Assembly: GCA_025924835.1 (NCBI GenBank)
Contig: JAICHO010000005.1
Coordinates: 1 to 42,042, forward strand
From: Candidatus Saccharimonadota bacterium
Lineage (GTDB): Bacteria > Patescibacteriota > Saccharimonadia > Saccharimonadales > JAICHO01
DNA length: 42,042 nucleotides
Direction: 5' to 3'
Under the pieces are notes generated by a model, which saw nothing but the letters and a program-made list of their open reading frames with translations, searched no databases and had not been told where the DNA came from. This document shows, piece after piece, positions 20,988 to 29,161 of the stretch. Each line of letters begins with the position of its first letter. Positions within the stretch are counted from its first letter, which is position 1. The position numbers and the translations under genes were made by a program.

Positions 20988-22163
20988 CTAATCAATAAAG
21001 ACTTCTTTAGCACTAGGAAAACCATTGTAGTCGGTGGCGCTCATGGTGGCCGAATAGCCGCCAACGCCGCCAATCAGGACAAAATCATCAATTTCCGCCT
21101 TATTCAGGGTCCGTGGCATTAATACTTCAGGGTCACCGGGTGCGGGCGTTAGCAAATCGGCTGATTCGCAGTTGTGCCCGACCACAACGTAGTCGTGCTT
21201 CTCAGAGCTATCACTTAGTACTGCTATAGGGTGCTGTGAACCGTACATAGCGGGCCGCATAAAATCATTCATACCGGTATTGAGTTTGATAAAGGTATAG
21301 CCTTCCGGTCCCGTATCCGTAATATCATCAATACGAGCAATGAGTAAGGCGATGTTGCCAACCATAAAGTGCCCAGGCTCTAGCTCCAGTTTGAGTTGCC
21401 GGCCAGTGGTCTCCGCAAAATGGGTAAGCTCACGGGAGATAATTTTTCCTATTTCTGACATATCCGCACCGTGCTCTTCTGGTACGCGAGCGATTTTAAA
21501 ACCACCACCTAAATTAATGATCTCAGCGTCTGGAAAATTTTTGATAAGTTCTAGACTAATCCGAGCTGCCTCTTGCCACACTTGCGGATCGCTTCCAGAA
21601 CCTATATGGGTATGCATTCGTTTAACCGTCAAGTTGTATTTTTTAAGCAATTCATGGACCTGTGGGATATATTCATGCCAGATACCAAAGCTGCTGGTCG
21701 GGCCGCCTACATTTACCTTAACCGAGTGCCCCGAACCAATGCCAGGGTTGATACGTATGCTAGCTTCACTACCCGGAAAAGATTTACCATAGATTTCCAG
21801 CTGTCGGAGTGACGTAGCATTAAAATGAACACCTAGTTTGACCAGCTCGGCAAGGTTATGGGCTAATTGTTGGCTAGTGAGTACAATTTTGGCTGGTTCA
21901 AAACCGGCAGCAATGGCCTGCTCAGCCTCATAGCCAGAACTAGCATCAATGCCGACCCCTAGCTCTTTCAAGACATGTAATATTTCAAGATTAGGGTTGG
22001 CTTTCATGGCATAATAAATTTGCACTCCATACGGAGCTGGCATATCTAACATTGCTTTGGCCTGCTCGGTTAGTTTTTCGCGGGAATACACAAACAACGG
22101 CGTTCCGTATTGCTTTGCCAATAGATTCACTTGGTCGTTACTTAAAAAGTTAGTACTAAACAT
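20988..22163 (-). CDS. lysA: Diaminopimelate decarboxylase-type PLP enzyme
   Basis: A 391-residue fold-type III PLP decarboxylase. The PLP lysine is Lys54 in YYAMKANPN. The barrel motifs HTHIGSG, NLGGGF and LELEPGHFMVG are present, as are the active-site CESAD of the partner subunit (family CESGD) and the end ATDYNGFPSAKEV (family YNGRPRPAEV). LysA makes lysine from meso-DAP; sister enzymes act on ornithine, arginine or carboxynorspermidine. The CES.D motif favours DAP or a similar D-centre substrate. It starts 7 bp after lysS, so both are on one transcript, with no other lysine-pathway gene in the window. No Shine-Dalgarno is seen, so coupling to lysS is likely. Confidence 0.85.
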   Translation of the reverse strand: MFSTNFLSNDQVNLLAKQYGTPLFVYSREKLTEQAKAMLDMPAPYGVQIYYAMKANPNLEILHVLKELGVGIDASSGYEAEQAIAAGFEPAKIVLTSQQLAHNLAELVKLGVHFNATSLRQLEIYGKSFPGSEASIRINPGIGSGHSVKVNVGGPTSSFGIWHEYIPQVHELLKKYNLTVKRMHTHIGSGSDPQVWQEAARISLELIKNFPDAEIINLGGGFKIARVPEEHGADMSEIGKIISRELTHFAETTGRQLKLELEPGHFMVGNIALLIARIDDITDTGPEGYTFIKLNTGMNDFMRPAMYGSQHPIAVLSDSSEKHDYVVVGHNCESADLLTPAPGDPEVLMPRTLNKAEIDDFVLIGGVGGYSATMSATDYNGFPSAKEVFID

Positions 22164-22170
22164 CTGCTGA

Positions 22171-24138
22171 TTACTGAAATAATTGGAAGTTTTTAGTTAG
22201 TTGGTCGGCTTGGTCGTTGGGGGCTAAAAGAGTTATGCCGTAAAAAGTGGTGTCGCTGATAGATTGGTCTTGCAGCCGCTCGGTTATTTCTTGGTCGTTG
22301 GTGGTATCCTGCATTTCTTTTATAAAAACATGGTATGGAATGCCCGTCTTTTGGACTTCTTGGTATAGCTTGTGGAGTTCTTTATCGTCCGCACGTTTGA
22401 TAATTATGGCGTACTGCGGGTTGCGTGGAATCATTTGACCGTCACTGCTGACAAAGTAATCACCGCTGACTAGCTGTTCTTTTTTAACCTTGTTGCCGAT
22501 AATGGCGGACATATGGGCCACGGCATTTGTTGCCCGCCACGGTTCCAGCTCTTTATTAACCACGGCGACGATTTTTTTGGTAAAGTCCTGCGGGCGGGAA
22601 GCGTTAATGGCGCCCCTGGACTTAGCCTGACCGGCAAAAACTTCCGAATAAATCTCCTTGGTAATTTCATCCGTTTCGGCACGCAATTGCGGAAAGATTA
22701 CTCCCTCACGGGCTGTAACACCCTCAAAAAACCAAAAGTACCTCTCTGAGTAGCTGTAGCCGCAAGTGGGCGGCATGCCATATTCGAGCATTTCTACAAA
22801 ATCTATGTCCAGCATTTGGGCTTCTGCGTCGCCCGCATCCCTTAGCGCCTGTTGTTCCAAAAACCGATTTAGCTGGTCCAGGGGATCATTTAATTCTGAA
22901 TAGCCATTACCAAGCTCAGACCCGGCGATAACCGGATGAAACCGCTCTGAAACCCTGGGGTCTTCCTGCGATGCCTTGGCCAAGGGCGAAATTGCGGTCG
23001 GCTCCTGCACTAGCCAAAAAGGTCCCGGCTCCCCAGCCCGAATAATTTTCCAAACACCATCTAGCGCGCGGTTAACGTTCATCTCATCGGTCACGTACGC
23101 CTTGTGCTCCTTTAGAATACTCTTTAGTTGAGCTAAGTCAGGATTAAAAACATCCACCCCCATTTTTTCGCGCATAATATCCGCATATCTGACGACTGGC
23201 CACTTTTGGTCCAGGTTAACCTCAAAACCTCGTACATTAAATTGCAGTTTACCCCACGTTTCGTACGCTACATGCTTCATCATGGCTTCATAGAGCTCAA
23301 TACCCTGCTCGTAGTTCATATATGCGGCGTAGCTTTCAAAGGCGACGTGCTCCGGCAGGTGCTCGTCGCTGTAGTTTTCGTTCCTAAAGCGGGGGCCGAT
23401 GTCATAAACCCGTTCATAACCACCGCCGATGAGGCGCTTTAGCGGCAATTCATGGCTGATTCGCAAGTAAAAATCCTGGTCCAGGGCGTCCATATGCGTC
23501 ACAAACGGGTTGGCATCGGCGCCCCCCGTAGTGTGTTCTAGCACAGGCGTGTTAATCTCGGTAAAACCGTTTTGGTTTAAAAAGTCACGGGTGGCTTGCC
23601 AGAACTTGCTGCGGCGGATAAACCGCTCATAGACATCTTTATTAACATTAGTGTCCACATAACGGCGGCGCAGACGCTCCTCTTTGTTCGTCAGACCAGA
23701 CTGATCCGTGGGCATGGGTCGCAAACTCTTGGCTAGTAGCCTTAATTGCTGGACTTCTATGGATATCTCCCCTGTTTGGGTTTTAATGACCGGTCCACTT
23801 GCTTCTATAAAATCACCCGGGTCTAACAAATTAAGCTCTGCCATACCTAGATGGTTCTGGACCGGATCCAGAGGCTGGACAGTATCCTGCTTTAGGAACA
23901 GTTGCAGTTCGCCGCTAGCGTCCTTGAGTACAATGAACGCGATTTTGCCAAATTTACGTATGCTTTTAATCCGACCAGTGACGGTAACTGTTTGATCCTG
24001 TATGGTGTCAAATTGATCTGTTATTTGCTGAGTGACATGTGTTCGATTAGCTTTGGCTGGATATGGATTAATGCCAAGTTTTTTTAATTCATCCAATTTG
24101 CGCAATCGTTCGTCACGCAGTTCTTTAAGCGTAGCCAT
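22171..24138 (-). CDS. lysS: Lysyl-tRNA synthetase fused to a C-terminal DUF2000 domain
   Basis: A 655-residue class II LysRS, about 150 longer than usual. An OB-fold anticodon-binding domain (about 50-140) precedes the class II core: motif 1 around 180-205, motif 2 YERVYDIGPRFRNE (241-254), and the lysine-pocket string DFVEMLEYGMPPT (446-458). Motif 3 is unusual: GYSYSER (460-466) instead of GxGxGIDR, keeping the Arg. Residues 519-655 form a separate domain beginning KKIVAVVNKELEP and containing ATNAVAHMSA, SDGQMIP and FYGITLLAP, which matches DUF2000 (PTH2-like fold). lysA follows by 7 bp. The two-domain reading rests on remembered family patterns. Confidence 0.92.
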   Translation of the reverse strand: MATLKELRDERLRKLDELKKLGINPYPAKANRTHVTQQITDQFDTIQDQTVTVTGRIKSIRKFGKIAFIVLKDASGELQLFLKQDTVQPLDPVQNHLGMAELNLLDPGDFIEASGPVIKTQTGEISIEVQQLRLLAKSLRPMPTDQSGLTNKEERLRRRYVDTNVNKDVYERFIRRSKFWQATRDFLNQNGFTEINTPVLEHTTGGADANPFVTHMDALDQDFYLRISHELPLKRLIGGGYERVYDIGPRFRNENYSDEHLPEHVAFESYAAYMNYEQGIELYEAMMKHVAYETWGKLQFNVRGFEVNLDQKWPVVRYADIMREKMGVDVFNPDLAQLKSILKEHKAYVTDEMNVNRALDGVWKIIRAGEPGPFWLVQEPTAISPLAKASQEDPRVSERFHPVIAGSELGNGYSELNDPLDQLNRFLEQQALRDAGDAEAQMLDIDFVEMLEYGMPPTCGYSYSERYFWFFEGVTAREGVIFPQLRAETDEITKEIYSEVFAGQAKSRGAINASRPQDFTKKIVAVVNKELEPWRATNAVAHMSAIIGNKVKKEQLVSGDYFVSSDGQMIPRNPQYAIIIKRADDKELHKLYQEVQKTGIPYHVFIKEMQDTTNDQEITERLQDQSISDTTFYGITLLAPNDQADQLTKNFQLFQ

Positions 24139-24172: not shown

Positions 24173-24955
24173 TCAAGCAATATCCTCTGCCATACTCCAT
24201 AAGCTTTGAAATTGGGCACAAAATAACTGAGCCGCCGCCGGATTATCTGTCAAAATACTGAGCCGATTTTCCGTGTCCTCCGGACTACTAAATGTAATGC
24301 AAACTCTGGTATGATCGATGACAAAAAAATGAAACCCGCGTGCTTGTTTATAGTATCGTAGTCGTACACCAATGCGTTGCCATTTGCTGATAATATGCTG
24401 GTTACTAATCTTGTGCTGTTGGACAATGTGTTTGACACTTACCCCACGCTTAATTGTTGCCCGCTGGGTGCTTTCCAGCTTTTCAGAGAAGGCAATGCCA
24501 ATAGAATAAAGCCAAATCTCATGTTTTGCTTGATTAGCTAGCCGCAGATACGCGTCATATAACGCCTGCCGCCCAATAATAATTTCTAATTGGTCAGTTG
24601 AACCCTTCTGCGATATAACACTATGAATAAGTTGCTGCAGGTCTTTTTCTGTAGCTTGAAAAGAAGATTTTAAACCGGTGGATAATGGCAACGCCTCAAA
24701 AGCCCGTGGTCGTCCAGGCAAGCGACGCACCAAACGGTGTTTTTCCAAATCATAAAATAGTCGATACTCAGCCGAAGGAAAATCGTACGTATAGCTGGCT
24801 GCCCGTTGGGCAGTTAACTTGCCTTTTTGATGAAGCAGCTCATACAAATGAACGGCCTGAACACTAAGTCCAATTCGCCGTAAATACTCCTGTTCTTCCA
24901 GGCTGAGCCTGAACTTCTTGCTCGCCACAACTATTTCTTTCTGATTCTTCTGCAT
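24173..24955 (-). CDS. TrmB-family transcriptional regulator
   Basis: A 260-residue protein with an N-terminal winged helix (about 15-95, including SVQAVHLYELLHQKGKLTAQRA and the wing RRLPGRPRAFEALP). A coiled linker (about 100-120) and a PLD-like C-terminal effector domain (about 130-250, EIIIGRQALYDAYLRLANQAKHEIWLYSIG) follow. This is the TrmB plan, whose members bind sugars or other ligands and repress or activate nearby genes. A TTG at 24973 is possible, but the ATG at 24955 is preferred. A perfect 14-bp inverted repeat begins at this start codon and covers the divergent methyltransferase promoter, suggesting autoregulation. Confidence 0.78.
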   Translation of the reverse strand: MQKNQKEIVVASKKFRLSLEEQEYLRRIGLSVQAVHLYELLHQKGKLTAQRAASYTYDFPSAEYRLFYDLEKHRLVRRLPGRPRAFEALPLSTGLKSSFQATEKDLQQLIHSVISQKGSTDQLEIIIGRQALYDAYLRLANQAKHEIWLYSIGIAFSEKLESTQRATIKRGVSVKHIVQQHKISNQHIISKWQRIGVRLRYYKQARGFHFFVIDHTRVCITFSSPEDTENRLSILTDNPAAAQLFCAQFQSLWSMAEDIA

Positions 24956-24988
24956 ATATATTTTAACAAACAAATGTTAAAATATATA
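24955..24988. promoter_or_regulatory. Operator-like 14-bp perfect inverted repeat
   Basis: TATATATTTTAACA (24955-24968) and its exact complement TGTTAAAATATATA (24975-24988) flank a 6-nt spacer AACAAA. On the plus strand, TTTAAC (24962-24967), 17 nt and TATAAT (24985-24990) form a promoter inside the repeat. On the minus strand it abuts the TrmB start codon. This is the expected place for a binding site of the regulator. Confidence 0.75.
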
Positions 24989-27463: not shown

Positions 27464-29161
27464 TTAAGTCGCTAGGGTTTTTATTATTTCGTCGGCGCTC
27501 ATCATCATTACTTCCGGTTCGGTGCGTTTTTTTATCTCATACAGAGTATGTTCTAGCGTTTTATCACTAACGACAACTCTGTATGGGATGCCCAACAGAT
27601 CCGCGTCTGCAAACTTTTCGCCGGCTCTGACGTCACGATCATCATATAACACGCTAACGTTTTGTGTCTGTAATTTTTCGTAGAGCTCGTCGGCTGCTTG
27701 TATCACGCCGGGGCTTTCCCCTAATCGTGCCAAATATACTCTTGCCGGCGCGATATTTTCTGGCCAGATTATTCCTCTTTCATCGTGATGGGCTTCCACG
27801 ACGGCTGCCATGCTGCGGCCAATCCCAAAACCGTAACAACCCATATAATACTTTTGCTTTACGCCCTTTTCGTCGGTATATTCAGCTCCCTGCATTAAGT
27901 TTGTGTAATGATAGCCAAGCTGAAAAATATTACCGACTTCAAAGCCTCGTTTTTCAACTAACTTGCCTTTGCCTTCCAAGGCTTCATAGCCAGGTTTAGC
28001 CAGCGCAATGTCATAAAATTGTTCCGGCTCAGGGACATCGCGGCCAAAGTTCACATTAATGGTGTGAAAGTTTGTATGGTTAGCTCCAACTTCAAAGTTT
28101 TTACGTCCGCGGACGGATTCATCAAGTATTATTTTTACTTCTTTGGGAAGATTAAGAAAACCAGCATATCCAACATCTGCCTTGGTAACACGCTTGACTG
28201 TTTCTGGAGAGGCTAATTGAAAATCTACACCTCCTAAAATATGTCGTAGCTTGGTTTCGTTGATGTCGTATTCACCCATGACTGCGGCTGCAATAACTTC
28301 GCCGGTAATTGTTTCAAACAGGATGGTCTTGGTTGTTTTTTCTACTGGAATATTAAGAAATTTGGCCAGCTCTTCAACACCAATTATGCCTTTGCCCTCT
28401 ACTTCTTCCATTGGCTTGAGCTCTTCATCACTATCTTCCTGATATTTGGCAAATGTAGCGATGTCTTCATGCGCCGTGTATGTGCCATCTTCGCTTACAA
28501 AATAGCGGCTTTCACCGTTATCACCGGCCGCAATGAATTCGTGACAGTACTCACCGCCGATATAGCCGTTATCGGCTGCTACAACATCAAACTGCAGGCC
28601 GAGTTCTTCGCAAATAGCGCTGTAAGCATCCCACATTTTTTGGTATATCTCTTGGAATTGAGCTTCTGTACTAAAACTGTACGCGTCTTTCATGACAAAT
28701 TCACGTACTCTGAGCAAGCCCCCACGAGCGCGGGCTTCATCACGGAACTTCATGGCAAACTGGTACATGTTAAACGGCAAATCTTTGTAGCTAATGTTAA
28801 ACTTGCGCACCAGGTCTACGGCCATTTCTTCGGCCGTCCCCCCTAGAGCAAACTCGGCTTCGCGGCGGTCTTTAATTTTCATTAATTCAAATCCCGTCGT
28901 ATTGGTGCGGTTGGTTTCTTTCCAGAGCTCAAGAGGGTGCAAGACCGGCATTAGCAACTCCTGGGCACCCGATGCATCCATGTGCTTGCGCACAATTTCA
29001 ATAATCTTATCGTGAACTTTAAGGCCAAGCGGTAATAAGTAGTACCGCCCGGCGGTGGACTCCCTGATATAGCCAGCCTGCGTCAGTAGCCGATGAGACG
29101 GAATAACGTAATCTGTCCCTTCCGTTTTTGAAGTTCGTCCGAATAGCTTTGATAGTCTCAT
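27464..29161 (-). CDS. proS: Prolyl-tRNA synthetase, bacterial type with editing domain
   Basis: ProRS charges tRNA-Pro. The 565-residue protein has class II motif 1 (about 40-75), motif 2 around FAMKFRDEARARGGLLRVREF, the bacterial insertion/editing domain (about 230-390), and motif 3 GCYGFGIGRSMAAVVE, then the anticodon domain. Length and the insertion mark the bacterial form. It starts with a Shine-Dalgarno (AAAGGA) 27 bp after proB, so proB-proS form one operon. Confidence 0.97.
   Translation of the reverse strand: MRLSKLFGRTSKTEGTDYVIPSHRLLTQAGYIRESTAGRYYLLPLGLKVHDKIIEIVRKHMDASGAQELLMPVLHPLELWKETNRTNTTGFELMKIKDRREAEFALGGTAEEMAVDLVRKFNISYKDLPFNMYQFAMKFRDEARARGGLLRVREFVMKDAYSFSTEAQFQEIYQKMWDAYSAICEELGLQFDVVAADNGYIGGEYCHEFIAAGDNGESRYFVSEDGTYTAHEDIATFAKYQEDSDEELKPMEEVEGKGIIGVEELAKFLNIPVEKTTKTILFETITGEVIAAAVMGEYDINETKLRHILGGVDFQLASPETVKRVTKADVGYAGFLNLPKEVKIILDESVRGRKNFEVGANHTNFHTINVNFGRDVPEPEQFYDIALAKPGYEALEGKGKLVEKRGFEVGNIFQLGYHYTNLMQGAEYTDEKGVKQKYYMGCYGFGIGRSMAAVVEAHHDERGIIWPENIAPARVYLARLGESPGVIQAADELYEKLQTQNVSVLYDDRDVRAGEKFADADLLGIPYRVVVSDKTLEHTLYEIKKRTEPEVMMMSADEIIKTLAT

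Follow-up and report, generated by a model that had tools for sequence, protein, structure and literature searches.

What is a DUF2000 domain doing at the C-terminus of a lysyl-tRNA synthetase (LysRS)? The question arises from a 42,042-nucleotide stretch (the window) that is part of contig C5 in a Candidatus Saccharibacteria genome of ~1.0 Mb. An earlier note, made from the letters of the window, had described a LysRS gene there as fused to DUF2000, ascribed a PTH2-like (peptidyl-tRNA-hydrolase-2-like) fold to the extra domain and suggested that it serves editing, deacylation or tRNA recycling in cis.

A lysyl-tRNA synthetase with a DUF2000 tail

The fusion gene occupies positions 22171–24138 on the minus strand, the strand of every feature of the protein given below, and encodes 655 amino acids in one reading frame from an ATG start to a TAA stop, uninterrupted by internal stops. 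An OB-fold anticodon-binding domain (tRNA_anti-codon, residues 51–135, 23734–23988; Pfam PF01336, E = 8.1e-13) precedes a class II catalytic core (tRNA-synt_2, residues 152–483, 22690–23685; PF00152, E = 2e-60), and both match LysRS models. NCBIfam calls the core a lysine--tRNA ligase (NF001756, E = 3e-139; TIGR00499, E = 1.4e-126), each score falling 3–5 bits below its curated cut-off (~4 bits for TIGR00499). Motif 2 FRNE, the motif 3 Arg and the lysine-pocket Glu residues are all found, and E230, R252, N253, E254, E415 and R466 are present and conserved across the 99 LysRS compared. Behind the core, a sequence-variable linker (residues 501–520, 22579–22638) leads into DUF2000 (residues 521–654, 22177–22578), which an HMM search of the C-terminal segment matched to PF09391 over profile positions 1–132 of 133 (E = 2.9e-25, 89.2 bits against a cut-off of 25). 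The segment also matched the solved protein 2gax, with E = 7.6e-4 as a single sequence and 3.7e-17 as a profile. The fusion described in the earlier note is thus borne out. A second, standalone DUF2000 gene lies on contig C21 of the same genome.

The earlier note had itself raised the objection that a sequencing or assembly frame error might have joined two genes, an explanation that we give a negligible chance. The sole point in its favour is a related MAG copy (G727, L112) with frameshifts in its LysRS part. We exclude it because the layout recurs in frame in 31 further genomes, which span many families and include G035, a genome in a single contig; moreover, a search of the linker for ATG, GTG and TTG codons that could start a separate gene found none. 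Mycobacterial LysX, an MprF–LysRS fusion, also joins LysRS to another domain, and model NF002821 scores the window protein on its LysRS part only. The LysX partner domain is N-terminal and makes lysyl-phosphatidylglycerol, whereas the window protein has no MprF part.

Some residues of the core depart from the pattern of unfused enzymes. Residue 462 in motif 3 (22753–22755) is Ser in the window protein and Gly in all 76 unfused LysRS; Ser also occurs there in G013, and Ala in G469 and G496. Elsewhere, six LysRS that form a clade and all carry DUF2000 (L113–L117 and L123) have R226A, Y270M and Q422L at positions that are invariant in the 76 unfused LysRS. Since Y270 is probably the counterpart of a lysine-pocket Tyr, the specificity of this clade may have changed. 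We rejected an altered lysine pocket as the general reason for editing and keep it as a lead only, with deviations per sequence mildly higher at 2.1, against 1.5 in LysRS with other tails. Separately, dozens of Saccharibacteria genomes (for example G001, G005, G006 and G007) show no close class II LysRS, giving only weak matches at the level of Asp/AsnRS paralogues, and may use class I LysRS.

The gene that follows the fusion encodes a PLP enzyme resembling the diaminopimelate decarboxylase LysA (20988–22163, minus strand; TIGR01048, E = 2.5e-74, below cut-off; Pfam Orn_Arg_deC_N). It starts 7 bp past the LysRS stop codon and is a probable operon partner that would tie the locus to lysine metabolism. 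Because its score lies below the lysA cut-off, it may instead be a related decarboxylase. A LysA-like gene also sits close downstream of LysRS in G125, G002, G129 and G047, and ~3 kb away in G013. Three of the six fused Saccharibacteria genomes have a LysA-like gene, as against 17 of the 192 others (Fisher p = 0.015, uncorrected for kinship). LysA pairing is not a specific mark of the fusion, however, as the LysRS of G002, G047 and G129 are unfused. Immediately before LysRS, and on its strand, a gene at 24173–24973 gives weak matches to TrmB/PLD-like archaeal-type regulators; it stands beside LysRS in G046 as well.

Fold and conserved residues of the appended domain

We modelled the DUF2000 domain with AlphaFold2 from three sequences (pLDDT 71, medium confidence) and compared the model with the PDB by Foldseek. 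The best match was 2gax (E = 4.7e-10, TM 0.74–0.76), the solved DUF2000 member Atu0240, which has the same fold. Next came nine chains from five PTH2 proteins (1wn2, 2zv3, 1rlk, 1q7s and 1xty; E between 5.6e-5 and 1.1e-3, with a probability of 1.00), and what follows is far weaker, at E = 0.3. Aligning 42 DUF2000 domains with the five PDB PTH2 sequences in hhalign gave P = 1.2e-6 over 113 columns. The PTH2-like fold that the earlier note had attributed to DUF2000 is confirmed by these comparisons. Known members of the family are standalone proteins, whereas the window domain is part of a LysRS; a model of the full-length fusion (pLDDT 56) was too poor for domain docking.

The domain has the PTH2 fold, yet its active site rules it out as a PTH2, because the catalytic lysine of PTH2, which we take to be the Lys of the GKGK motif, is not conserved. 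Among the 42 domains, that column (aligned position 21; R535 in the window protein) holds K in 14, Q in 12, N in 5 and R in 4, and E, V, L and S also occur. The QDAGxTQ region of PTH2, with its Asp and Thr, falls in a gap of the profile alignment, and no conserved Asp is seen there in DUF2000. The Pfam PTH2 model (PF01981) scores the isolated domain at 17.0 bits, under its cut-off of 23. On the catalytic lysine, a canonical PTH2 is rejected despite the matching fold.

DUF2000 has a conserved set of its own. N538 (22525–22527) is invariant in all 42 aligned domains and distinguishes the family from PTH2. H542 (22513–22515; 40 of 42) is in register with an invariant His of PTH2, and T648 (22195–22197; 42 of 42) with an invariant Thr near the PTH2 C-terminus. 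From this conservation we propose N538 and H542 as putative active-site residues.

PTH2 enzymes cleave an ester on tRNA. Their fold is a point in favour of an alternative in which DUF2000 hydrolyses N-acylated, peptidyl- or D-aminoacyl-tRNA, recycling or detoxifying in the manner of PTH2 while LysRS carries it to rescue tRNA-Lys. The variable lysine column and the failure to find a conserved Asp at the PTH2 site argue against it, as do its gene neighbours, described below, and we regard it as quite unlikely.

Distribution and origins of the fusion

A survey of LysRS architectures across Patescibacteria, proposed in the earlier note, located fused DUF2000 in 32 genomes; in all 32 it sits on the LysRS C-terminus and in none on another protein. 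Of the LysRS in 198 genomes of the order, six could be aligned right through to the query's end, and no two of these come from one family. When 393 genomes of the order were covered, only nine contained DUF2000, as six fused and four standalone copies, the source genome having both. Across 380 genomes of the phylum, 35 contained DUF2000, and 19 of these copies are fused, the frameshifted G727 copy included. Class-level samples added nine more fused copies, with five of six genomes fused in one small class. Genomes with and without the fusion also occur side by side within a genus (G696/G525, G726/G621 and G571/G651). As most class II LysRS, including these same-genus relatives, are without DUF2000, the domain is dispensable on LysRS.

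In a tree of 85 LysRS cores, the distribution of the fused state requires 12 or more gains or losses. The domain tree divides into two types. Type A, to which the window domain belongs, unites 21 fused domains with four standalone ones, three of the latter adjoining LysO; in type B, two Saccharibacteria fusions (G125 and G012) are nested among standalone proteins. A single origin of all fused domains was rejected by the AU test (p = 8.4e-5), so two DUF2000 subfamilies have fused to LysRS independently. For type A fusions considered alone, a single origin was not rejected (p = 0.127). The window protein groups with G046 by its DUF2000 domain and with G013 by its LysRS core, a conflict that may reflect domain exchange or weak signal. 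We also dismissed a phage or viral origin, as no DUF2000 query matched phages or viral contigs.

Exchanged modules, gene neighbours and a proposed editing role

Relatives of the window protein carry other modules at the same end of LysRS. Adding to DUF2000 on the synthetase chain itself, we found a C-terminal B3/4 domain (L165), B3/4 with an HD domain that matches just at cut-off (L171), HD with DUF2000 (L113), HD, B3/4 and DUF2000 together (L114), DUF2000 with HD (L121), and DUF2000 then an AlaXM-like domain that has the motifs HxxxH and CxxxH (L127); HD alone forms the LysRS tail in several Patescibacteria. The LysRS C-terminus of Patescibacteria is thus an insertion site for B3/4, AlaX, HD and DUF2000, sometimes several per chain. 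B3/4 and AlaX are established deacylase families.

Two side observations concern these modules. Fusions of LysRS to B3/4 or AlaX-type domains (L114, L127, L165 and L171) are seemingly unreported. The HD module is either fused to the LysRS C-terminus (L113, L114, L121 and L167–L175) or encoded beside LysRS (L130, L214, L217 and L219), and in three genomes a standalone HD gene lies directly 3' of LysRS–DUF2000.

The arrangement resembles the cis-editing domains of other synthetases (INS in ProRS, the AlaRS editing domain, B3/4 in PheRS and CP1 in LeuRS) in placing an extra domain on the enzyme, with B3/4 and AlaX exchanged for DUF2000 on LysRS. It differs in that the DUF2000 fold is distinct and its activity inferred. 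A ProRS gene in the window (27464–29161, minus strand) keeps its INS-type editing domain (PF04073), so the source genome retains cis-editing on another synthetase.

For standalone DUF2000 genes, we hand-picked 18 annotated plasmid neighbourhoods for spread. On two Legionella plasmids, DUF2000, YbaK and AlaX genes are consecutive. Exporter genes also recur: a LysE-family gene adjoins DUF2000 in five plasmid loci and a DMT transporter gene in one. Within Patescibacteria, AlaX, DUF2000 and LeuRS follow one another in G205, and AlaX, DUF2000 and EamA in G660; LeuRS is downstream of standalone DUF2000 in the source genome (G000), G777 and G778. In the source genome, class IV and class V aminotransferases, a standalone type B DUF2000 and LeuRS stand in a row on one strand (L071, 10116–15274). 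LysO adjoins type A standalone DUF2000 in all three readable cases (G648, G458 and G484), the G458 call resting on similarity to Pfam-tested copies. LysE and EamA are broad families of amino-acid or metabolite exporters and are not lysine-specific. On the strand opposite LysO–DUF2000 lies a recurrent gene of ~215–225 codons (MIKISKIVEEI...; L130, 2859–3533, minus strand; L144, 6181–6822; L131, 1257–1910, minus strand) that has no Pfam match and looks like an amino-acid sensor.

The trans-editing factors AlaX and YbaK are thus physical neighbours of standalone DUF2000, and CtdA offers a further parallel, since the amino acid that it guards against mimics a basic one: this standalone B3/4 protein deacylates canavanyl-tRNA-Arg (PMC10018355). 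What links DUF2000 to AlaX and YbaK is gene context, and to CtdA a presumed role, rather than any demonstrated kinship in sequence. Fusion to a synthetase and adjacency to editing factors are two independent guilt-by-association links, and they agree.

These neighbourhoods also bear on the alternatives. GNAT acetyltransferase genes stand upstream of DUF2000–YbaK–AlaX in both Legionella loci and lend something to the rescue of N-acylated tRNA, but neighbours overall are mostly L-aminoacyl-tRNA editing factors and exporters rather than ribosome rescue genes. Alternatively, DUF2000 could have no catalytic role and serve to bind amino acids or to regulate, tuning LysRS in response to lysine or one of its analogues. 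An AraC regulator gene lies beside DUF2000 or one gene off in most of the 18 plasmid loci, with an Lrp/AsnC regulator in one, and in the loci examined from Proteobacteria and Actinobacteria AraC outnumbers every other neighbour; XRE regulator genes, aminotransferases and unrelated genes occur too. Such regulators, the LysE, LysO and EamA exporters and the poor conservation of PTH2 catalytic residues would suit a sensor. AlaX and YbaK adjacency and the exchange with B3/4 and AlaX suggest a tRNA substrate instead, the fold is shared with enzymes that hydrolyse an ester on tRNA, and the polar residues N538, H542 and T648 are near-invariant in very divergent members. We find a sensing role unlikely.

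Nor do we put much weight on DUF2000 as a mere appendage that binds tRNA or stabilises the enzyme, so that LysRS in small genomes gains in affinity or in the stability of its dimer. Aminoacyl-tRNA synthetases often acquire non-catalytic appendages, and one with a PTH2-like fold could attach to the acceptor stem. There is also a precedent for an appended synthetase domain that supplies substrate, the MetRS–aminotransferase (PMC7694997). This explanation leaves both the standalone clustering with AlaX, YbaK and exporters and the invariant Asn/His/Thr set unaccounted for, and we judge it very unlikely.

We favour, somewhat beyond an even chance, a cis-acting aminoacyl-tRNA deacylase at the LysRS C-terminus that clears wrongly charged tRNA-Lys. 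LysRS would charge tRNA-Lys at times with a wrong or non-protein amino acid, such as ornithine, another lysine analogue or a small residue (Ser, Thr or Ala, for instance). The tRNA, still bound, would then move its CCA end into the pocket of the PTH2-like domain, where hydrolysis of the ester bond would free the tRNA. Standalone DUF2000 would act likewise in trans, often from operons with exporters of the offending amino acid. We infer the hydrolytic activity, what it acts on and the parts played by N538, H542 and T648 from fold, conservation and context. Counting against this reading are the variable column at the PTH2 lysine, the neighbours other than editing genes, and the majority of class II LysRS that do without the domain. 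Class II LysRS can produce Orn-tRNA-Lys (PMC8001834), and its active site edits homocysteine, homoserine and ornithine (PMC7373986). Ser or Thr mischarged by LysRS, among others, is cleared by ProXp-ST factors, and LysRS has been described with active-site pre-transfer editing only and no dedicated post-transfer editing domain (PMC7373986).

The idea of cis-editing gains strong indirect support because B3/4 and AlaX take the same site on LysRS and standalone DUF2000 adjoins AlaX, YbaK and LeuRS. The interpretation in the earlier note is thus partly supported, its editing and deacylation by indirect evidence, while recycling fares worse: with the PTH2 catalytic lysine not conserved, mischarged aminoacyl-tRNA being hydrolysed through another mechanism is likelier than PTH2 chemistry that cleaves peptidyl-tRNA or recycles tRNA. 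DUF2000 on LysRS is probably a previously unrecognised proofreading module.

Our search of open-access journal papers found no description of a LysRS–DUF2000 fusion and no mention of DUF2000, PF09391, Atu0240 or a biochemical activity of any DUF2000 protein. A synthetase with an appended editing-type domain is a known kind of arrangement; what is new is the family to which the domain belongs and its presence on a synthetase that has not been described as carrying such a domain. A broader proposal, which we hold to be evenly balanced, is that DUF2000 constitutes a new aminoacyl-tRNA deacylase superfamily with a PTH2-like fold and other catalytic residues, acting in cis on Patescibacteria LysRS as the first dedicated LysRS post-transfer editing domain and in trans elsewhere, in analogue-resistance operons with LysE or LysO. 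That a C-terminal module recurs and trades places with proven editing domains leads us to predict such a dedicated domain on LysRS, and editing would give the widespread DUF2000 family its first function open to testing. For the organisms, it suggests that lysine analogues or mischarging press hard on the tiny genomes of Patescibacteria, perhaps as a result of amino-acid uptake from hosts.
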